Assembly (NCBI RefSeq): GCF_002934455.1
Contig: NZ_PTIR01000002.1
Span: 434,001 to 498,000, forward strand
DNA length: 64,000 nucleotides
Source: Trinickia symbiotica
Lineage (GTDB): Bacteria > Pseudomonadota > Gammaproteobacteria > Burkholderiales > Burkholderiaceae
Direction: 5' to 3'
Part shown: positions 22,187 through 32,234 of the stretch, piece after piece
Layout of the letters: each line of letters begins with the position of its first letter
Numbering within the stretch: the first letter of the stretch is position 1
Notes under the pieces: model-generated
Seen by the model: only the letters and a program-made list of their open reading frames with translations
What the model was told of the DNA's origin: nothing
The model's database searches: none
Made by a program: the position numbers and the translations under genes

Positions 22187-22654
22187 ATGGCAACAAGTCG
22201 AGATGAAAAGGAGAAGGCGACCGGCGCTGAAAACACGCAGGCAACGCAGGGAGCTGACCAATCGCCCTCGGGCGACGGCAAAGGCCGTGGCGCGAGATAT
22301 GGACTGCGCGGCCCCGCCCGGGTCGCTTCAGAAGAATTCGGTGGCCCGATCATCGGGTTCGTCTGCGACACCGTGACGGGGACACTACGTATGACCGGCA
22401 CCGTTGCAAACGACGCAGTGGAAATCGTGCGCGACGTGTTGACCGGCGCGGTGCACGCGACCGAGGAGGTCGGCACGGAAACGCTCGGCGCTGTCGGAAC
22501 GCTCGGCAATGGGGTCGTCACGACCGCACGCGAGATTCTCGTGGGCGGCGTCGGCGGTGTCCGGGAGATACTCGGGTCCGCGGTACCGCTGCGTGGATCG
22601 GCGCGGGAGGAAGGCGTCGGTACGCGCGAGCGCGAGTCGGCGGGTAAAGCCTAA
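22187..22654 (+). CDS. Hypothetical protein with helical glycine-rich repeats, 155 aa
   Basis: No family recognised. The first ~45 residues are charged and disordered-looking (RDEKEKATGAENTQATQGAD). Residues about 55-140 hold repeated amphipathic segments of the type IVRDVLTGAVHATEEVGTET and VVTTAREILVGGVGGVREIL, with regular Gly/Ala spacing that suggests membrane-surface or membrane-inserted helices. A strong GGAGG stands 6 nt before the ATG. It lies upstream of the P-type ATPase cluster, separated only by the DUF445 gene on the other strand, and may belong with it. The 189 bp before it hold nothing else. Confidence 0.6.
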   Translation: MATSRDEKEKATGAENTQATQGADQSPSGDGKGRGARYGLRGPARVASEEFGGPIIGFVCDTVTGTLRMTGTVANDAVEIVRDVLTGAVHATEEVGTETLGAVGTLGNGVVTTAREILVGGVGGVREILGSAVPLRGSAREEGVGTRERESAGKA

Positions 22655-22735
22655 GTACTGGCTGGCGCGGTCGATTGCGCTTCGCCTGGGTGGGTGGCCG
22701 TGGTTCACGAGAGCGGCGGCGCCCCCCTCGGAAAA

Positions 22736-24031
22736 TCAGAAAAGCGTTCCAAGCGCGTGCAGCACCAGACCCACCATGCCCCCGATCAACGTTCCGTTGA
22801 CTCGGACGAATTGCAGATCGCGCCCCACCTCCACTTCGAGTTTTTCCGTCACGGTCGCGGTATCCCAACGCCGCACCGTGTCGGCAATCAGTCGCGCGAG
22901 CTCGTGCCGCTGAGCGGGCATCATATCGAGGATCGCCTCTCGCGCCCGCTCGTTCATCCGCGAGCGTAATGCTTCATCGCGCAACGCTTCGCGCGTCCAT
23001 TGCGTAATGAGCGTCTGCAGTCGCGCCTTCACGACCGAATCGGGTGCCTGCGCGTCCATGCGCGTTTGTTCGACGAGCTCGCTCCAAAGGCTGCCGACCC
23101 AAGCTGCGAACGCAGGATGCTCGAGCAACTGCTCGCGCCATGCCTCGCATTTCGCCAGATAGGCCGGCGACGCGGCGAGCCCGGCGATCAGCTCATGCGC
23201 GAACTCGCCGAAGCGGCGCCGCCATGGATGATCGCGATTGTCGCGCACGTCGGTCATCGCTTCGTCGATGACGCGAATGACCGCGTCGGCGACCTTATCG
23301 TCGAGCGCGATGCGCTGCCATATCCATCCAGTGCCTTCGCGCACGCGGCGGCGGATCAGGTCGTGGTTCTCGTGAAAGAGCAACGCCAGCTCTTCGAGCG
23401 CAGGCGTAATGAGCGCATCGTAGTCGATGGTTCGCGCCACTTGCGTGAGCACGCCGCCCACGAGCGGCGCAAGCTCGATCTCGCGGATGCGTGCCGCGAG
23501 CGCGCTGCGCGTGAATTGCTCGACATCCTCGGTGCCGACACTGGCCAACAAGTCCGGCATCAGCCCAGCCAGATAGTCGGCGATCTGCCCCGTCTGCTCG
23601 GGCTTGCCGATCCATCGCACGAATGCGCCCGAAAGATCGACGTCGGCAAGCTTCGCCGCGATGTCTTCCTGCGATAGAAAATTCTGCTCGAAGAAATTGC
23701 CAAGGTTCTCGCCGATACGGTCTTTGTTGCGCGGGATGATCGCCGTATGCGGCAACGGCAGACGCAGCGGGTGCCGAAACAAGGCCGTGACGGCGAACCA
23801 ATCCGCGATGCCGCCGGCCATGCCCGCCTCGGCGAACGCGCGGACGAAACCGAGCACAGGATATGCTCGCTCGAAAAACGCCGAAACGGCGAAGAGCGCG
23901 ATCATCGCAATCAGCAGCCCTGTCGCGGCCGCTTTCATACGCCGCAGGTCGCGCGCTTTGTCGGGTCGTTGCTGTCGTTTGTCTCGTTTCATTTGCGGTC
24001 GATCGCGAGAACCTCGTGGACTGGCCGTCAT
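22736..24031 (-). CDS. DUF445 (YjiN-like) membrane protein
   Basis: 431 residues. After a basic N-terminus there is one membrane span near 33-55 (ATGLLIAMIALFAVSAFF). The family signature FVRAFAEAGMAGGIADWFAV then TALFRHPLRLPLPHTAIIP follows, then a long helical domain, and a second hydrophobic segment closes the protein (VNGTLIGGMVGLVLHAL). DUF445 proteins are widespread inner-membrane proteins of unknown function. An alternative start 13 codons later (MKRDKRQQRP) is equally plausible. It is divergent from the P-type ATPase gene, with 94 bp between the starts. Confidence 0.88.
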   Translation of the reverse strand: MTASPRGSRDRPQMKRDKRQQRPDKARDLRRMKAAATGLLIAMIALFAVSAFFERAYPVLGFVRAFAEAGMAGGIADWFAVTALFRHPLRLPLPHTAIIPRNKDRIGENLGNFFEQNFLSQEDIAAKLADVDLSGAFVRWIGKPEQTGQIADYLAGLMPDLLASVGTEDVEQFTRSALAARIREIELAPLVGGVLTQVARTIDYDALITPALEELALLFHENHDLIRRRVREGTGWIWQRIALDDKVADAVIRVIDEAMTDVRDNRDHPWRRRFGEFAHELIAGLAASPAYLAKCEAWREQLLEHPAFAAWVGSLWSELVEQTRMDAQAPDSVVKARLQTLITQWTREALRDEALRSRMNERAREAILDMMPAQRHELARLIADTVRRWDTATVTEKLEVEVGRDLQFVRVNGTLIGGMVGLVLHALGTLF

Positions 24032-24125
24032 TCTAGGCGACCCTTGGGGCTATCCCTAAACGGCTGGCATTCGCATCAGATTGACCTATGCTTGGTCTCT
24101 CAACCGCTGACGACGAAGAACACTC

Positions 24126-27100
24126 ATGAACGGGCGTTCCGATGCGGCTCTCGCCACCGCGCTTACGCGCGCGCCGGGCGAGCCTGCCGCGATGCCTGAT
24201 GCAGCGAACGCGGCCGTCGTCTTGCACTCGGCCGTGCCAGGGCGCGCAAGATTGCATGTACCGCGACTCTACCGCGACGAAGCGGCGTGCAACGCCTTTG
24301 CGCAGAGTTTGACTGCCCGCGGCCCCGTCCGCCGTGTCGAAGCCAGCTCGCTGACGGGAAACGCGCTGATATGGTTCGATCCGGCGATCCCGGTGGCCGA
24401 GATCGCCGCGCTGGCCGGCGAGCCGCCAAACGGTTTCACTCCGAATCATTCGCCACCGTCTGCCAGCGCAAGTGAAAGCGCAACGGCACGCGTTCTTCAT
24501 CCTCCGTTTGCCGCGCGCGAACAGGACCGCAAAGAGCGTGCGCGCACAAGTGCCGGTCAGCTCGGCCAGGCCGCGCGGCCGTGGCACGTGCTCGATGCGA
24601 AGGAAGTGTTGCTCGCGCTCGGCTCGTCGAGGCTTCGCGGTCTGTCCGAGCACGCAGCGCGGCGGCGGCGGCTCGCGAACGGGCCGAATCGCCTGCAGCG
24701 GCCGCAGCGTCGCTCGCCGCTCGCCATGTTCGTGTCGCAATTCAAGAGCTTGCCTGTTGCGCTCCTGGCGAGTTCGGCCGTCGTCTCGATCGCCACCGGG
24801 GGGCTCGCCGATGCCTTGCTGATCACCGGAGTCGTGATCGTGAATGCGGTGATCGGCTATGCGACCGAGGCGCAGACCGAACGTGCGATCGACGCGCTCA
24901 GCGAGGACACGGAACGGCATGCGCTCGTGCTGCGCAACGGGGCCTTGCGCCGGATCGACGCCAGCGATCTCGTGGTCGGCGACATACTCGTGCTGTCGGG
25001 CGGTGCCTACGTGCCCGCGGATGCACGCGTGATCGAAGCCCGGCAACTGTCCGCCGACGAGTCCGCGCTGACAGGCGAAAGCGTGGCGGCAAATAAGTCG
25101 TCGAATCGCACCGATAGCGAGGACGTCGCGCTCGCGGATCGGACCTGCATGGTCTATATGGGCACGACGATCGTCACGGGCAACGGCCTCGCCGTAGTCG
25201 TCGCCATCGGACGCGCCACCGAGATCGGTCTCATTCAAACGCTCGTCGGCACCACGCGCCCGCCGGCCACGCCGATGCAGCGGCAGATGGAACGCCTCGG
25301 GAATCAGACGGTGCGAATCGCGGCCGCGATCTGCGGCCTGGTCTTCGTGCTGGGCCTGCTGCGCGGGCGGGGCTTGCTCGAGATGTTCAAGGCGTCGGTA
25401 TCGCTCGCCGTCGCCGCGGTGCCCGAAGGACTCCCGACCGTCGCGACGACGACGCTCGCTCTCGGCATCCGCCGCATGCGCCGGCAAAACGTGCTCGTGC
25501 GCCGGCTCGACGCCGTCGAAACGCTCGGTGCCGTCCATACCGTCTGCTTCGACAAGACCGGCACACTGACGGTCAACCGCATGCGCGTGCTCGCCATGCA
25601 TGCGAACGGCGAGCGCAGCGCCGTGATGGACGGTCTCCTGTATTCGCCGCAAGGTCGAATCGATCTCTTCGCGCGCGAGGACGTGCTGAGGCTCATGCAC
25701 GTCGCCGTGCTCTGCAATGAAGTGCAGTTGCGAGGCACGGCGCCGCGCTATCGTCTCGACGGTTCCTCGACCGAAATCGCGCTCGTCGAGCTGGCGCTCG
25801 CCGCCGGCATCGACGTCAATGCCGTGCGCATGCGTCATCCGCAGCTGAAGATCGCGTATCGCGCCGAAGATCGAAACTACATGTGCACGCTGCATCGGCA
25901 TGCGGAATCGGGAGGGCATATCCTCGCCGTCAAAGGCAATCCGGTCGAGGTGCTTGCGCTTTGCGACGAGCAGATGAAAGACGGTCAACGCCTTCCACTG
26001 GACGACGAAAATCGCCGCCGCATTACCGAGGCGAACGTCGAGATGGGCGGCAGCGGGCTGCGTTTGCTCGGGTTCGCCTATGCGTCAGGCGACGAAACGC
26101 TGGGCGTGGATTCGCGCGGCCTTTGCTGGCTCGGCATGCTGGGACTCGCCGACCCGATCCGCGAGGGAGCGAAGGAGCTGATCGCCCTCTTCGAAAGAGC
26201 CGGCATCAAGACCGTCATCATCACCGGCGACCAGAGCGTCACGGCGCAGGCGATCGGCAAGACGCTCGGCATCGGAACCAACGGCGGCGCGATCGTCGTT
26301 GACTCGACGCAGATCAACGGCATCGACGAAGCCGCCTTCGCCGAGCTTGCCGCGGACGCCGACATTTTCGCGCGTGCGAGCGCCGCGCAAAAGCTCAGTA
26401 TCGTGCGCAGGCTGCAACGCCAGAACCAGGTCATTGCAATGGTCGGTGACGGGGTCAACGATGGTCCCGCGCTCAAAGCCGCGGACATCAGCGTGGCGAT
26501 GGGGCGTCACAGCACGGATCTGGCACGCGAAGTGGCGGACGTCGTCCTGGAAGACGACGATCTCCAAACGCTGACGATCGCGATGAGTCAGGGTCGCACC
26601 ATTTACAACAACATCCGCAAATCGGTGCACTTTCTCGTCTCGACGAACATGAGCGAAATCATCGTGACGCTGTCGGCTTTCGGCCTCGGTATCGGCCAGC
26701 CGCTCACGCCGATGCAGCTGCTCTGGATCAATCTTCTGAGCGACGTCTTCCCTGCCCTCGCGCTCGCCGTGGAGCCTCCCGAACCCGACGTGCTGCAAAG
26801 ACCGCCGCGCGATCCCGGTGAAGCGATCGTGCAGCGCGCGGACATGCTCCGGTACGGCAAGGAAGCGCTCGCGATCAGCGGCGGGGCGCTCGCGAGTCAT
26901 GCCTTCGCGGCGATGCGTCACGGTGTGGGCGCGGCGGCTGGGACCGTTTCGTTCATGACGCTCACGCTCGCTCAGCTCTTGCATGCGTATAGCTGCCGTT
27001 CGTCGACGCGCGGCGCGCTCAGCATCGTCAAGCGGCCACGCAACCGGCAACTCGATCTCGCGATCGGCGGCTCGGTGGCGCTGCAACTGCTTGCCAGTGT

Positions 27101-27251
27101 GACTCCGGGGTTGAATGGAATGCTCGGACTGTCGCGCATCGATGTGCTCGATGCGCTGGCCATCGCCGCCGGTGCGACGGCGCCCTATCTGCTGAACGAA
27201 TCGACGAAGCCGGCGCTGGCCGTGCGCAACGGGCCGCGCGAGCCGCGTTGA
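24126..27251 (+). CDS. P-type cation-transporting ATPase with PEGLP core and cysteine-free HMA-like N-terminus
   Basis: 1041 residues. Residues ~33-95 form an HMA-like ferredoxin fold ([24 protein letters not shown]) with no CxxC. The P-type core follows: TGES at 316-319, PEGLP at 433-437 in membrane span 4, the phosphorylated Asp in DKTGTLT at 476, and [14 protein letters not shown] from 774. The C-terminal spans include [25 protein letters not shown] in place of CPC, and the LLWINLLSD block, put it with P2-type (Ca2+/Mn2+-like) pumps rather than P1B heavy-metal pumps, yet it has an HMA-like domain. It faces three stand-alone HMA-like genes and a DUF5132 gene. The transported ion is unknown. 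Confidence 0.9.
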
Positions 27252-27271
27252 GCGTTTCTTTTTGGATTACG

Positions 27272-27706
27272 TTAGATCAATGCCGCGACGAGCGCGATCG
27301 CGCAGCGCTCGACCAGCGCTTCGATCGTCTTGTCGACGAGCGCATCCGCGAGCGACCGGGAAGGCATTGCCCGTGCAATACCGCCCATCTGCGGCATCGT
27401 CGCCGCCGGGGCAGTCACATAGGGAATCGCTCGCGCTTCGAGCAAGCCGCACGCCTTGAGTTCGGCGAAGATCCGCTCGGCGCTGACGAACTGGGGGTCG
27501 AAACGCACGACGAGGCTGCCGGTAAGCGAGTTACCGATCGCGCTGCGCACTCCATCGAGCACGCACAGCTGCTGCGCGGCAAGGCGCGCGCGCGCGTCGT
27601 TCCGTTTGATCGCCGAAAGCTTCAGTCGAAGCCGGCCGGGCACGTGATGAACGTGATCCGCGAAATACTCTGACTCTGCCATCCTTGCAAGCGCCCCGTT
27701 ACACAT
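27272..27706 (-). CDS. HMA-like (HMA2-type) domain protein, 144 aa
   Basis: Residues ~22-90 show the same pattern as the ATPase N-terminus: a basic strand after GR (VPGRLRLKLSAIKRN), a helix, then LDGVRSAIGNSLTGSLVVRF and FVSAERIFAELKACG. No CxxC is present, so it should not bind soft metals in the classical way. A hydrophobic C-terminus follows (LADALVDKTIEALVERCAIA, LVAALI) and may anchor it in the membrane. It ends 20 bp from the stop of the convergent ATPase gene. Start choice is open between 27706 and an ATG at 27682; neither has a clear ribosome-binding site. Confidence 0.75.
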   Translation of the reverse strand: MCNGALARMAESEYFADHVHHVPGRLRLKLSAIKRNDARARLAAQQLCVLDGVRSAIGNSLTGSLVVRFDPQFVSAERIFAELKACGLLEARAIPYVTAPAATMPQMGGIARAMPSRSLADALVDKTIEALVERCAIALVAALI

Positions 27707-27822
27707 CCATGCCGATAGCTCGGCGTCATGCGTTATTGCAACGCGTCGATGTGACGGCTTGATTAAAGCGCGCTGATTTTCGCGGAAGGCATGCGATTTT
27801 TTCGCCCCGGGCGACGCAAGCT

Positions 27823-28386
27823 TTATCGCCGATTGGGATCCGCGTCGTCGCCCGCTGCTGGCGGTACGGGTACGGGCGGCAGGGGCGCAGGAGAATCAGT
27901 ACGCGCGCGAGGACGAGCACGCCACGCGTCATAGGCGTACCAGAACAGCGTGACGGCGGGGGCCATGATCTGCCCCCTGACCGTTTGCAGCGTACCGAGG
28001 CCGGCAAGCGTGGCACTGAGTCTGCGCGCCTGCGCTCGCTCGCGCTCCTCGTGAGACTCGCCGGGTTTGCGGCGGGCGATCGCCGGCTCGCGGCGCATCA
28101 CCGCATGGGCGCGCGCAGGCGCGCTTTCCTCCGACGAGACGCGCGGGGGCCGAAGCGAGAACAACCCATGCCGATCCGCATAGGTCGCAATCGCGTCGAC
28201 TGTCGTCGTATGCCGGATCAGTATGCTGCCCGTCAGCGGACTCGCATGCACATCCGTCACGCCGTCGCATTGCGCGAGACGCCGCGACAGGTCAGAAAAG
28301 TACGCGGCGTCGCGACGCCGCGAGCGCAGTTTGATGCGCAGCCTCCCCGCAATCCGATGCGTGAGCTGCGCTTCGTCAAGAGGCAC
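27823..28386 (-). CDS. HMA-like (HMA2-type) domain protein with membrane segment and basic tail, 187 aa
   Basis: I start it at a GTG at 28386 because AGGA stands 8 nt upstream and the protein then opens with the HMA-like domain (IAGRLRIKLRSRRRD, QCDGVTDVHASPLTGSILIR). This start overlaps the end of the DUF5132 gene by 11 bp and suggests translational coupling. A longer frame begins at 28449. After the domain comes a charged linker, a weakly hydrophobic stretch (IMAPAVTLFWYAYDAW) and a proline-rich tail (APLPPVPVPP). No CxxC is present. Confidence 0.75.
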   Translation of the reverse strand: MPLDEAQLTHRIAGRLRIKLRSRRRDAAYFSDLSRRLAQCDGVTDVHASPLTGSILIRHTTTVDAIATYADRHGLFSLRPPRVSSEESAPARAHAVMRREPAIARRKPGESHEERERAQARRLSATLAGLGTLQTVRGQIMAPAVTLFWYAYDAWRARPRARTDSPAPLPPVPVPPAAGDDADPNRR

Positions 28387-28726
28387 CGGGATGATCCTGT
28401 GAAGAAGAAGATGTGGCCGCTTCGCCGCCGTTCGCCCCGTGCGCCGCACCCGCCGCGGACATTCCTTCGACGATTGCGCCTTCGCGCGGATGCTCGAGTT
28501 CGGCGCGCGCCTCGGCCACGAGGTCTTCGAACACCTCGGCCATTTCCGCGGCGGCCTCTCTGCCTTTGTCGAAAAGAATGACGCCTGTCTTGATCACCGA
28601 TTTCGCAAGCGGCTTCGAGACGGCGGCAACGACGGGCAATACGACCGGTGCAAGCACTACTGCACCGACGCCAACCGCGAGCCCCGCCAAGAGGTTGCCC
28701 CTGAAGAAGTCGTCCAGTCCGGCCAT
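28376..28726 (-). CDS. DUF5132-family protein
   Basis: 116 residues. It has the family layout: a short helix (LDDFFRGNLLAGLAVGVGAV), a hydrophobic span (LAPVVLPVVAAVSKPLAKSV), then the amphipathic KTGVILFDKGREAAAEMAEV and EDLVAEARAELEHP. The tail is low-complexity (EAATSSSSQDHPG). AGGGC lies before the ATG. DUF5132 proteins are small membrane-associated proteins often seen beside HMA2-type domains and P-type ATPases; no biochemical role is known to me. It overlaps the next HMA-like gene by 11 bp. Confidence 0.8.
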   Translation of the reverse strand: MAGLDDFFRGNLLAGLAVGVGAVVLAPVVLPVVAAVSKPLAKSVIKTGVILFDKGREAAAEMAEVFEDLVAEARAELEHPREGAIVEGMSAAGAAHGANGGEAATSSSSQDHPGAS

Positions 28727-28808
28727 GACGCGCCCTCCGCAAAGAAATCCATTATAGACGTGCGGTTTCGCGCTGCCGGTGGGTGATCCACCGATTGCGA
28801 AATCACAT

Positions 28809-29378
28809 TCAGCGACGGCTAGCGAAATCGGGCGCGGGATGAGGCGCCGGCCCGCGTTCGGGATGCAGCTTCACGAAAGTATCGAATGCGAGCCACAGAA
28901 AGACCCAGCCGGGCACGGTTTCGATCATGAGCCCGCGCCTCGCGATGGACCACGCGCCGGCGGCCACGAGCGCGAGCGGCAGCACGAGCCGCAAATTCAT
29001 TGGCATGCCGATCGCGCGGCGCACATAGGCATCGAGATCGTCGATCGCTTCTGTGAAGCCCGGATGGCGGCCAGACTCCAGTCCGGCCTCGTCGACGGCC
29101 GGCGGATGCAGCGTGGACTCGACTACGACGTCGAGGTCCTCTAAGAACTGAAAGATCCCCTTCCCGTCGACTTTCGCATGATCGTAGGGAATCGTCATGC
29201 TGCCGGTCGCCGCATTGACGACGACATCGCCGATGCCGTGCTTCGACTCGAGGTATTGCTCGATGCGCTCGAGCTGCGCCTTGCTGCGCGATCGATGGTC
29301 GAACTTGACGCGCAGGCGGCCGCGCACCTGGCTGGCCACCCGCGCGTGGGAATGCGGCTTCTCGCTCGAAGGTTTCAT
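28809..29378 (-). CDS. HMA-like (HMA2-type) domain protein with C-terminal membrane spans, 189 aa
   Basis: This is probably the first gene of the minus-strand set. Residues ~17-85 give the HMA-like pattern (SQVRGRLRVKFDHRSRSK, HGIGDVVVNAATGSMTIPYD, GIFQFLEDLDVVV) with no CxxC. Residues ~125-175 hold two hydrophobic stretches (LRLVLPLALVAAGAWSIA and VPGWVFLWLAFDTFVKL), a predicted hairpin in the membrane. It is followed after 82 bp by the DUF5132 gene. Confidence 0.78.
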   Translation of the reverse strand: MKPSSEKPHSHARVASQVRGRLRVKFDHRSRSKAQLERIEQYLESKHGIGDVVVNAATGSMTIPYDHAKVDGKGIFQFLEDLDVVVESTLHPPAVDEAGLESGRHPGFTEAIDDLDAYVRRAIGMPMNLRLVLPLALVAAGAWSIARRGLMIETVPGWVFLWLAFDTFVKLHPERGPAPHPAPDFASRR

Positions 29379-29468: not shown

Positions 29469-30143
29469 CTAATACTGCGCGACAATCGTCACGCGTCGGT
29501 TCGCGGCGCGCGCCACGGCATCGTCGCCAAGCGCGAGCGGATCGTTGTCGGCCCGCCCGATTGCGGCAAGGCGGCCCGGCTCGATCCCCCGCTCGACGAG
29601 GAAGCGCACGACGGCCCCCGCTCGCGCAGCCGAAAGCTCCCAGTTCGAGGCATATTGAGCCGTCGCGATCGGCGCGCTGTCGGTATGGCCTTCGACGAGG
29701 ATGCTCCTCGGCGAGCCTTTCTTCAATACCTCAGCGACGCGCGTGAGATCGTCGAGGCCGTCGGGCAACAGTCGCGCCTCGCCGGAATTGAAAAGAACCC
29801 TCGCATTGATCGCGATTTCGATCCCCTGCGGCGTCTCCTTCACGGTCACTTCGCGCCGGTCGACGAGCGGCGCGAGCAGCGCGACGAGCCGAGCCCTGCG
29901 TGCAAGATCGGGCTGCGCGACGGATGGCGCCACGGCCACGGGCACCGCCTGAGCGGCCGCGGCTTTCATTTCGGACTCCTTCGTTTTCGCGAGCTGCAGA
30001 ATGTACATTGCGAGGAAGAAGACCATCAAGGTCGTGACGAGATCGGCATAGGAAAGAAGCCAGCGCTCGGAGCGGGCTTCGTCCTCATGCTCCTGATCGC
30101 GCGGCGAAGTGCCGGGCGGCTTGCTGATCGATGAAAATTCCAT
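29469..30143 (-). CDS. MotB-like stator subunit with OmpA peptidoglycan-binding domain
   Basis: 224 residues, shorter than typical MotB (about 300). One N-terminal span, SYADLVTTLMVFFLAMYIL, carries the proton-carrying Asp at position 34 in the MotB context. A linker leads to an OmpA-like domain (~105-224) with FNSGEARLLPDGLDDL, LVEGHTDSAPI and NWELSAARAGAVVRFL, which grips peptidoglycan. It forms an operon with the MotA-like gene (62 bp between) and the cNMP/FliG-like gene, and appears to be a second, non-canonical stator (MotCD-like) rather than the main flagellar MotAB. Confidence 0.88.
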   Translation of the reverse strand: MEFSSISKPPGTSPRDQEHEDEARSERWLLSYADLVTTLMVFFLAMYILQLAKTKESEMKAAAAQAVPVAVAPSVAQPDLARRARLVALLAPLVDRREVTVKETPQGIEIAINARVLFNSGEARLLPDGLDDLTRVAEVLKKGSPRSILVEGHTDSAPIATAQYASNWELSAARAGAVVRFLVERGIEPGRLAAIGRADNDPLALGDDAVARAANRRVTIVAQY

Positions 30144-30205
30144 GTCCTCGGACGCTCCGTTCGACTGCCGAATCGAAAGGGACCGGCAGACGCTGCACCT
30201 GTAAG

Positions 30206-30970
30206 TCAGCCGAGCAATTCAGCCGATCGTTCGCGGATATCTCCGGCGAGACGGGTTTCGATCGTTTGCGGCGATTCCTTGCGCGATATGGCGAGCAAGC
30301 CGTCGAAATAGAGCCTTCGGAAGCGCAGCTCCGAATCGACCTGCGCCTTGATCTTGCCGTAGAGCGGCAAGAAGATGAGATTAGCGAGACCGAGACCATA
30401 GAGCGTCGCCGTAAACGCCGCGGCAATGCCGCGTCCGAGCGAAGCGGGCTCGAGGATATGACCCGTCACGTGAATGAGGCCGAGGACGGCGCCGAGGATA
30501 CCGAACGTCGGCGCGTAGCCGCCGGCCTGCTGCCAGATCTTCGCCGCGGCCATGCGATTGCGCTCGTAAGCGTCGAGCTCCCTGCGCAATGCATCTTCGA
30601 GCACCGGCGTCGGCACGCCGTTCGCCAGCAAGTCGAGGCCGCGTTTGGCGAAAGCGTCGATGCCGTTCGAATCGATCGATTCGAACGCGAGCAGACCGTT
30701 GACCTTGGCCTGATCGCCCCATTCGAGCAGCAACGCAAGATTCGCGCGATCGACCTGCTTCGGCTTCGAGAACGCGAGCGCGAGTTGCTTCACGCCATCA
30801 AAAAAACGCGCCCAGGTGTTCTGTATCATCACCGCGCCAAGTGTGCCGCCGAGCACGACGACGAGCGCCTCGGCCTGCAGCAGCGACGTGAAGTCGCCGC
30901 CTTCGAGCCAGAAGCCGGTGGCGATTGCGGCGGTACCGAAAATGGCACCGAATAACGTAAGCAGATCCAT
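30206..30970 (-). CDS. MotA-like stator subunit
   Basis: 254 residues with four predicted membrane spans, as in MotA/PomA/MotC. The first span is LLTLFGAIFGTAAIATGFW and the second includes EALVVVLGGTLGAVMIQ. The cytoplasmic loop carries charged helices, and the pore spans hold the conserved prolines (GGYAPTFGILGAVLGLIHV and NLIFLPLYGKIKAQ). With the MotB-like partner it should conduct H+ or Na+ to drive rotation or another mechanical task. It ends 62 bp before the MotB-like gene and follows the cNMP/FliG-like gene by 37 bp. Confidence 0.9.
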   Translation of the reverse strand: MDLLTLFGAIFGTAAIATGFWLEGGDFTSLLQAEALVVVLGGTLGAVMIQNTWARFFDGVKQLALAFSKPKQVDRANLALLLEWGDQAKVNGLLAFESIDSNGIDAFAKRGLDLLANGVPTPVLEDALRRELDAYERNRMAAAKIWQQAGGYAPTFGILGAVLGLIHVTGHILEPASLGRGIAAAFTATLYGLGLANLIFLPLYGKIKAQVDSELRFRRLYFDGLLAISRKESPQTIETRLAGDIRERSAELLG

Positions 30971-31007
30971 AGCCGATCTATTCCAGTTTGGTGAGGCTGT
31001 CGTGCAA

Positions 31008-32234
31008 TCAGGCCGCGCCGGCCGTCGGGGCCGATTTGAGCGCCTTCACCGTTTCGAGGAAGCGCACCTCGATGTCGCCCACCTCGACGGGGTCGATCTT
31101 GATGTCGCGACGCATGACCCACGCAATTTCGTTCCTGCGCGTTTCCGTCATCACGGCCAACAGGCGGTCCACGACCGATTGGTCCGTCATCGAGGCGAAG
31201 AGCTTCGCGAGATCGTAGGTATCGGTCTGGCTGATGGCTTCGAAGAGCGTGCGCTGATCGACGTACGCCAGGTCCTCGAGCGACTTCACCTCGGTCACCC
31301 TGCGCGGATTGCGGCGCGAGAAGTAGGCGACGCCCTTCTCCTCGACGTAGTTGAGCACCTTGGTCTTGCGGAACGCGAACACGTCCTCCGCGATCTCGGC
31401 GTGCGAGAGCTTGTTGAGGATCACGGATTTGTCGACGCCGATCAGCGCCTCGAGATCCGTCAGATCGATCAGCTCGAGCTCGCTGTTGATCGCGATATCG
31501 AGATCCTCGTCGGCCACCTGTTGCGCACGCTCCGTGATCCGCGCCGGGTCGAATGTGACGAGCTGGCGTGCCGCGGCGCCGTCGTTCGCCGCATAGCGCG
31601 CGGCGTTGCTGCTGAAGTGCTCCGTGGTGCCCGACTGCAGCGTGATGAGATTGAGCTTTTCCATCCGCTTCAACATCGTCATGACGTGTGGGCGCGAATG
31701 CCCCGCGATGGCCCGGCATTTCTTGATGACGTCGACGAGCGGCACCGAGACTTCGTCGGACTGGCCGCGACGCGCCCAGCCATCTCCCGAGTCGGCGTTT
31801 TCCGATCCTGCCATCAACGAAAGGACATGCGCGTACGAGAGCACGCCCGGCAGGAAATCGGCATGCGTATAGGTCGCGAGCAGATCGTCGCGCTTTCGCA
31901 GTCGGCGGATCGTCGAGCGCACGATATGCCGCAACAGCGGCGAGGCGCGCTCGAGCTCCTGCTCGACCATTCCCGCCTGGATGACCGTCAGTTGGCAGAA
32001 CGTCAACGCCTTCGCCGTATGCGCTTTCGGTTCGGGCGGCAGCAACGCGGCTTCGCCGAAAAACTCGCCCTTGCCGAGGGTGGCGAGCACGACCTTCTTG
32101 TCGTCGCAATTGGTCGAGATCTCGACCTTGCCGTCCGCGATCACATAGATGACCGGCTCTCCGGCGTAACCTTCGGAATAGATGACCTCACCCGGCGCGG
32201 CCGCCCGCGACCACGAAGTGCGTTGTTGGCTCAC
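31008..32234 (-). CDS. Cyclic-nucleotide-binding-like / winged-helix / FliG C-terminal-like protein
   Basis: 408 residues in three recognisable parts. Residues ~10-110 form a CNMP-binding beta-roll (GKGEFFGEAALLPP), but the phosphate-contact Arg of the usual R-T/S-A motif is His72 here (AHTAKA), so nucleotide binding is uncertain. Residues ~160-205 look like a winged helix (LVDVIKKCRAIAGHSRPHVM). Residues ~316-400 resemble the FliG C-terminal domain that contacts MotA (SLEDLAYVDQRTLFEAISQ, RNEIAWVMRRD). It starts at a GTG with AGGGGA 7 nt upstream and is the first gene of the stator operon, 50 bp after a sigma-28-like promoter. It may be a ligand-controlled clutch or rotor partner for these stators (inference). 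Confidence 0.75.
   Translation of the reverse strand: MSQQRTSWSRAAAPGEVIYSEGYAGEPVIYVIADGKVEISTNCDDKKVVLATLGKGEFFGEAALLPPEPKAHTAKALTFCQLTVIQAGMVEQELERASPLLRHIVRSTIRRLRKRDDLLATYTHADFLPGVLSYAHVLSLMAGSENADSGDGWARRGQSDEVSVPLVDVIKKCRAIAGHSRPHVMTMLKRMEKLNLITLQSGTTEHFSSNAARYAANDGAAARQLVTFDPARITERAQQVADEDLDIAINSELELIDLTDLEALIGVDKSVILNKLSHAEIAEDVFAFRKTKVLNYVEEKGVAYFSRRNPRRVTEVKSLEDLAYVDQRTLFEAISQTDTYDLAKLFASMTDQSVVDRLLAVMTETRRNEIAWVMRRDIKIDPVEVGDIEVRFLETVKALKSAPTAGAA

Follow-up and report, generated by a model that had tools for sequence, protein, structure and literature searches.

A conserved gene set around a calcium-type P2A ATPase with HMA-like domains and a DUF5132 protein in Trinickia symbiotica

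The genome of Trinickia symbiotica (6.7 Mb) carries a compact set of genes for a P-type ATPase, three small HMA_2 proteins and a DUF5132 protein, which we describe here from a window of 64,000 nucleotides (contig NZ_PTIR01000002.1, positions 434,001-498,000; the coordinates below are those of the window). The ATPase of 1041 amino acids (aa), equipped with an N-terminal HMA_2 domain, is encoded on the forward strand (24126..27251). Its gene converges, across a gap of 20 bp, with that for an HMA_2 protein of 144 aa (27272..27706), which shares the reverse strand with the genes for a second HMA_2 protein of 208 aa (27823..28449), the DUF5132 protein of 116 aa (28376..28726) and a third HMA_2 protein of 189 aa (28809..29378). 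The positions and strands of these five open reading frames had been given correctly in an initial annotation made from the sequence alone. The genes for the 208-aa protein and the DUF5132 protein overlap; from an alternative GTG start at 28386 the former would encode 187 aa and share 11 bases with the latter, and an overlap between HMA_2 and DUF5132 genes was also seen in relatives. The initial annotation took this 5.3-kb block as a unit. The genes do belong together, as judged from their co-occurrence, but the functional unit is larger and spans 22187-29378, since genes for a repeat protein (REP) and a DUF445 protein to the left of the ATPase recur at DUF5132 loci. The gene set around this calcium-type pump is real and conserved, and apparently it has not been described before.

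All four HMA-like proteins of the block match the Pfam family HMA_2 (PF19991; curated cut-off of 30 bits). The 144-aa protein (34.8 bits, residues 19-80) and the 189-aa protein (34.1 bits, residues 12-162) scored above the cut-off, while the 208-aa protein (27.5 bits, E 3.5e-6) and residues 31-85 of the ATPase (22.5 bits, E 1.2e-4) gave significant matches below it. The HMA-like domain of the ATPase as a whole (residues 31-98; 24216..24419, forward strand) is supported by the order of strands and helices in a structure model and by conservation. Throughout the genome, HMA_2 was detected at E <= 0.01 in four places only, every one inside the block. The initial annotation had attributed a common HMA-like pattern to the four proteins: GRxR is indeed present in all of them and LTGS or ATGS in the three small proteins, but the ATPase has LTGN. 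It had also noted the lack of CxxC, and this holds over the whole lengths of the four proteins as well as for the 230 HMA_2 domains of the mapped loci described below, a set collected with a profile grown from the CxxC-free domains of the window itself. Thus the metal loop of the classical HMA metal chaperones is missing from the entire collection. The description 'cysteine-free' was incorrect, as isolated cysteines occur in the domains of the 144-aa protein (C48 and C86), the 208-aa protein (C61) and the ATPase (C55), leaving only the domain of the 189-aa protein without any; 90 of the 230 domains contain at least one. What is invariant in the family is basic: R21 and R23 were found in 71/71 HMA_2 proteins (with Lys or Arg at position 25 in 66), and G39, R40 and R42 in the corresponding domain of 44/44 pumps, in which H34, preceding GRxR, is kept in 42.

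The 189-aa protein has an HMA-like (ferredoxin-like) fold according to its AlphaFold2 model, which was built with 60 relatives, as had been expected from the initial annotation. Residues 11-80 are well defined (block means of the predicted local distance difference test, pLDDT, 94-98) and are followed by three helices (106-123, 129-146 and 157-171), of which the second and third are hydrophobic. In the Foldseek search with this model, ATP7B was the best match and the sole one below 1e-3 (E 6.7e-4), and 18 of the top 20 were HMA domains or HMA-bearing proteins. By VIA, the Z score was 9.2 for ATP7B and 8.9 for CopZ; this score alone does not settle the HMA-likeness, because unrelated RNA polymerase L subunits reach 8.5. 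The match of the HMA_2 profile to CopA among solved structures (1p6t, E 7.8e-5) adds weight to an HMA-like fold. A designed repeat protein, the top match of the same search (3.8e-7), was regarded as spurious.

HMA_2 presumably resembles the CoBaHMA domain of calcyanin, which we take to share the HMA fold, the basic residues of the first strands and the absence of CxxC. A link to intracellular calcium carbonate, considered on account of this likeness, was left as a thought only. P-type Ca2+ transporters have been suggested for Achromatium, and none was found in magnetotactic genomes (PMC11773610); the accessible part of that paper mentions neither HMA_2 nor DUF5132. In a text search of 5.39 million papers, which left preprints and most subscription papers outside, DUF5132, PF17195, PF19991 and CoBaHMA were never named, and the matches listed for HMA_2 were papers on plant HMA2.

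The ATPase is a P2A-type pump whose nearest solved structures, by sequence, are human SPCA1 and Listeria LMCA1. It carries matches to E1-E2 ATPase, Cation_ATPase_N and Cation_ATPase_C, its search against PDB gave 472 bits for SPCA1, 440 for LMCA1 and 366 for SERCA, and SPCA1 also came first in Foldseek with the pump model (mean pLDDT 82.7). As the initial annotation stated, the CPC of P1B heavy-metal ATPases is absent from transmembrane helix M4, where PEGLP is found instead (residues 433-437; 25422..25436, forward strand), with P433, E434 and G435 invariant in 44/44 pumps, that of the window among them. The same 44 pumps all keep DKTGT, TGE, E434, N841, E844, N869 and D873. Of these, E434, N841, E844, N869 and D873 are presumably Ca2+ ligands by analogy with SERCA, and the ligand set of P2A Ca2+-type ATPases is complete, with PEGLP in M4, Asn and Glu in M5 and Asn and Asp in M6. 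The core, DKTGT, PEGLP and the Asn/Asp pair of M6 are common to SPCA1 (ATP2C1), LMCA1, SERCA and the pump, whereas in M5 the pump has Asn841 and Glu844, presumably like SERCA, at positions where SPCA1 aligns with Ser and Ala. The N-terminal HMA_2 domain, joined by a low-confidence linker (residues 107-149), sets the pump of the block apart from all three. Ca2+ or Mn2+ is the likely substrate, judging from these residues, and the best NCBIfam model for the pump is likewise the PMR1-type Ca2+ ATPase.

The identity of the DUF5132 protein proposed in the initial annotation was confirmed by alignments and by a PF17195 score of 58.8 bits (curated cut-off, 25 bits). Its plan comprises one hydrophobic stretch with GxG and then a Glu/Ala-rich stretch. 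G19 is conserved in 80/83 members, together with the acidic residues E61, E64, E67, E72 and E76 and a D-x-x-A-E motif; E67, D68, A71, E72 and E76 are conserved by construction in the loci L045-L122, as the scan pattern required them, and 12 sequences found otherwise keep E57, E61, E64, D68, A71, E72 and E76. No solved structure matched the DUF5132 profile below E 0.16.

A scan based on a DUF5132 alignment gave 78 named loci (L045-L122), to which the window and 12 loci found by searching genomes were added; after removal of one copy (L055, of L054), 90 loci were mapped. L040-L044, HMA_2 loci without DUF5132, are outside this number. In the maps of L079 and L113 the DUF5132 gene dropped out at gene picking, so the DUF5132-based counts rest on 88 maps; L107 and L034, which have an identical DUF5132 protein and contigs of the same length, were both counted. 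By their titles, the 78 loci of the scan belong to Pseudomonadota, Nitrospirae, Desulfobacterota-type lineages, cyanobacteria, Methylomirabilis, Brocadia and a Chloroflexi bin. In 75/88 maps an HMA_2 gene on the strand of DUF5132 is no more than 300 bp away from it, and in 24 of these the two genes share 1 or 4 bases; start codons were chosen by script, and overlaps of other lengths are less sure. A P2 pump tailed with HMA_2 is present in 49/88 maps, on the strand of DUF5132 in 27 and, as in the window, on the opposite strand in 22. In Burkholderia sp. WSM2230 (L045), the nearest relative, the gene order is the mirror image of that in the window, and of the set only the gene for the 189-aa HMA_2 protein is missing.

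The pump and the DUF5132 protein also go together at the level of genomes. Among 369 genomes of the class, 11 have both DUF5132 and a full-length HMA_2-P2 pump, one has DUF5132 alone (G223), one the pump alone (G256) and 356 neither (Fisher's test, 3.9e-19, uncorrected for kinship), the sets searched for the two genes being identical as far as their matching genome labels indicate. The 13 genomes with either gene represent 13 families. G223 consists of about 430 contigs and has its DUF5132 gene on one of 5.8 kb. Six of the 12 detected pumps are rows of the search model; the six others scored 1372-1476 bits, and the next pump reached 968 with a match starting at model position 106. In four of the five class genomes whose DUF5132 stretch held no pump, a pump was found elsewhere in the genome. 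Among 200 genomes of the phylum, HMA_2 matches occurred in six; two of these (that of the window and G439) have a P2-type HMA_2 pump, adjoined by DUF5132 in both, and the other four have HMA_2 pumps of CPC or STPVAF type, with no DUF5132 found in the stretches inspected. The set is patchy, since neither DUF5132 at cut-off (one sub-threshold match) nor an HMA_2-tailed pump was found in ten relatives of the genus. No sign of spread of DUF5132 by plasmids was seen, as the window protein used as query had no plasmid match at E 1e-3.

Pumps of other types were noticed in the same survey. The cyanobacterial loci L062, L070, L076, L077, L089, L094, L100, L104 and L105 combine DUF5132 with a P-ATPase of 746-844 aa that has SVPTTV in M4 and no CPC, and several of them encode HMA_2 proteins with two HMA_2 domains. 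At L041, L042 and L043, HMA_2 genes adjoin those for pumps with an HMA_2 tail, which are 713-726 aa long and have STPVAF in M4; DUF5132 was not found there.

On the left of the ATPase, the window encodes REP (155 aa; 22187..22654, forward strand), a protein with 11/22-residue periodicity, and the DUF445 protein (431 aa; 22736..24031, reverse strand; PF04286, 331.9 bits). REP clusters with the products of 14 other DUF5132 loci (15/90 in total), in 10 of which its gene lies between those for HMA_2 and the pump, and the best match of the window protein is in L045 (2.5e-51). The autocorrelation of the family at lag 22 is 0.189, against a maximum of 0.110 at any lag over 200 shuffles; for the window protein alone, the values at lag 22 and lag 11 were reached in 1/500 and 5/500 shuffles, respectively. 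Periods of 22 and 11 residues recall amphipathic lipid-binding helices. REP has no significant match in Pfam (best E 0.35). The DUF445 cluster is found at 10/90 DUF5132 loci, the window counted, and neither REP nor DUF445 matched anything in PADLOC at E 0.01.

Many relatives of the pump are accompanied by a divergent paralog of the methionine adenosyltransferase MetK. It is encoded 3' of the pump on the same strand in 31 of the 49 mapped pumps, with an overlap of 1 or 4 bases in 14, and it follows the pump in all five genomes in which the pump is apart from, or without, DUF5132. The window block lacks it, and the single MetK of the T. symbiotica genome is encoded elsewhere. A second, better-scoring MetK was found in 22 of 23 chosen genomes with the paralog. 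The paralogs form a family of their own, with a mean identity of 58% among themselves and 43% to normal MetK; examples are L097:5246-6448 and L038:8210-9385, to which 31 others are added (those of L107 and L034 included), in most cases with coupling to the pump. HPD and SGK, shared with MetK, are kept in 33/33 paralogs (GHPDK in 30, GHPDR in three), whereas GAGDQG, present in 7/7 untruncated controls, is found in none, D239 is replaced by His in all 33, and Q99 and D119 are retained in one and three, respectively. We take the residues lost to be those that bind methionine. Both paralogs tested exceed the TIGR01034 cut-off, so that NCBIfam would still call these MetK. A literature search for metK in connection with P-type ATPases or calcium, with the coverage given above, listed two papers, both on other subjects.

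Adjoining the block on the right, a cassette at 29469-32234 encodes a MotB-like protein, a MotA-like protein and a protein of 408 aa, in which a cyclic-nucleotide-binding domain and, weakly, FliG_C (E 0.021) were matched. It is strongly matched in 9/10 other genomes of the genus. The MotA-like protein is above the NCBIfam cut-off for the flagellar motor protein (244.9 vs 237 bits), and the ZorB matches of the MotB-like protein (4e-19) may merely mirror the MotB family.

The initial annotation knew of no experimental description of the system. The family names were indeed not found in our literature search, but a similar principle has been published: PacL proteins scaffold P-type ATPases in mycobacteria (PMC9374683, PMC13043812). 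PacL1 (DUF1490) is described as a protein of a single helix, with Glu/Ala repeats on which the pump level and the complexes depend, its relatives are reported as DUF1490 and DUF6110 (PMC9374683), and effluxosomes and a GxxG of the PacL helix have been described (PMC13043812). From the same accounts, the PacL1/CtpC platforms of Mycobacterium tuberculosis share with DUF5132 a single helix with conserved glycines, a Glu/Ala-rich cytoplasmic part and the link to a P-ATPase; the published pumps are P1B metal pumps and that of the window is P2A, and the additional free HMA_2 proteins are a feature of the window block. In six plasmid-borne pumps beside DUF1490 genes, HMA_2 was detected at E < 1e-4 in two, weakly in two (0.013 and 0.073) and not at all in two.

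We lean, if only slightly, towards regarding the block as a P2A cation pump (for Ca2+, possibly Mn2+) plus an assembly in the membrane by which the pump is held or regulated. Export of the cation would be paid for with ATP. In the pump as in the three small proteins, the HMA_2 domains have the HMA fold without the CxxC loop, and would be docking or regulatory modules, acting by protein-protein contact or by binding anionic lipid or phosphate; they are more likely to be so than metal carriers, because CxxC is absent and the GRxR-type basic strand is invariant. The DUF5132 protein, co-produced with an HMA_2 membrane protein, may be the scaffold that gathers pumps, and we infer that the components form a physical complex that would work like the mycobacterial PacL/CtpC platforms. 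A scaffold role for DUF5132 and HMA_2 is likely by this analogy. The interpretation given in the initial annotation, scaffold or gating modules instead of metal carriers, is thus partly supported: the denial of a carrier function stands insofar as none of the 230 domains has CxxC, and scaffolding or gating is what the domains may do. Of the two outcomes that the initial annotation had named as refuting it, small proteins without a match to HMA-type profiles and genes that fail to co-occur across genomes, neither was obtained.

Several observations weigh against such an assembly around a calcium pump. The pump falls under the NCBIfam cut-offs for PMR1 (593.3 vs 798.3), SERCA (515.6 vs 703.4) and PMCA (369.9 vs 507.05), and therefore the transported ion is not settled. 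The neighbouring same-strand HMA_2 gene is missing in 13/88 maps and the HMA_2-P2 pump in 39/88, many of which end at contig ends, and the nine cyanobacterial loci pair DUF5132 with the SVPTTV-type pump. As to PacL, at least three His in the last 20 residues were found in 1/83 DUF5132 proteins and in 3/9 DUF1490 proteins (all nine plasmid-derived), so that the C-terminal His-rich metal-binding motif of PacL has no counterpart in 82 of the 83; DUF1490 and DUF6110 were not among the matches listed (25 of 61 families) for the 83 DUF5132 members; and hhalign gave DUF5132 and DUF1490 a probability of 4.4%. The hhalign score of 19.9 exceeds those of 20 full shuffles (<=15.2) and of the reversed profile (13.9), and is also reached by rotated profiles. 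Of 300 within-region shuffles, one reached the full-length ungapped profile score and 16 the local score, and local scores after a shift of the C-terminal helix rose to 15.6 against the true 12.5. Homology of DUF5132 to DUF1490 is thus not established by the family search, hhalign or these controls; as rotated or shifted profiles match or beat the true score, we keep 'works like' PacL and drop 'is a' PacL. DUF6110 was found in 0/100 genomes of the phylum, a count of no weight because the controls gave no match either, and DUF1490 was not found in two actinobacterial plasmids.

If the basic face of HMA_2 binds anionic lipid, phosphate or polyphosphate as its putative ligand, the block may do more than scaffold a pump: the ATPase, REP and, where present, the MetK-like protein would handle calcium along with phosphate or lipid on the surface of a membrane or granule. 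This is possible, though we would not expect it, and it draws on (i) the invariant arginines of the small proteins and of the pumps, (ii) the periodicity of REP, (iii) the MetK paralog behind many pumps, and (iv) genes for MgtE, a CaCA exchanger and EcsC (Pfam) as well as Pst/PhoU (named by eye) nearby, each in 6-16 of 90 loci. Nevertheless, Pst/PhoU genes are common among bacteria and their counts lack a background rate, and the window block has neither a Pst gene nor the MetK paralog. It is improbable that the HMA_2 proteins bind and pass on a metal through non-cysteine ligands for export by the pump; the fold is nearest to copper chaperones and metal-binding domains and the His before GRxR is conserved in the pumps, but CxxC is absent throughout, cysteines of any kind are confined to a minority of domains with invariant basic residues in their stead, and in the pump PEGLP stands in place of CPC, together with ligands of the Ca type. 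That the genes travel by chance on one island, as DUF5132 above cut-off in only 1/11 genomes of the genus and blastn synteny that breaks off at the block's right edge in all five relatives examined might suggest, is barely credible, since the same genes are together over several phyla with overlaps and varied orders, and since pump and DUF5132 share a genome even where they lie apart.

If a P2A pump held by a membrane assembly is genuinely what the block encodes, the principle of scaffolded P-ATPases, described for mycobacterial P1B pumps in the accessible parts of the papers above, would reach calcium-type pumps and cover proteobacteria, Nitrospirota, Desulfobacterota and other phyla. DUF5132 and HMA_2 would gain a testable role, and the HMA fold would have been converted from a metal carrier to a docking module. 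It is attractive to speculate further on an undescribed calcium system that is widespread among bacteria. Free HMA_2 proteins and a DUF5132 scaffold would assemble a P2A pump bearing a docking domain of HMA fold, and in many lineages the pump would have a MetK paralog as its partner. Having lost residues of the methionine site, this paralog would probably sense or produce a compound different from S-adenosylmethionine, and calcium export would be tied in this way to ATP or (poly)phosphate; taken as a whole, this picture is tentative and rather unlikely to hold in every part. The pairing of pump and divergent MetK in relatives asks how calcium export connects to nucleotide, methionine or phosphate chemistry.

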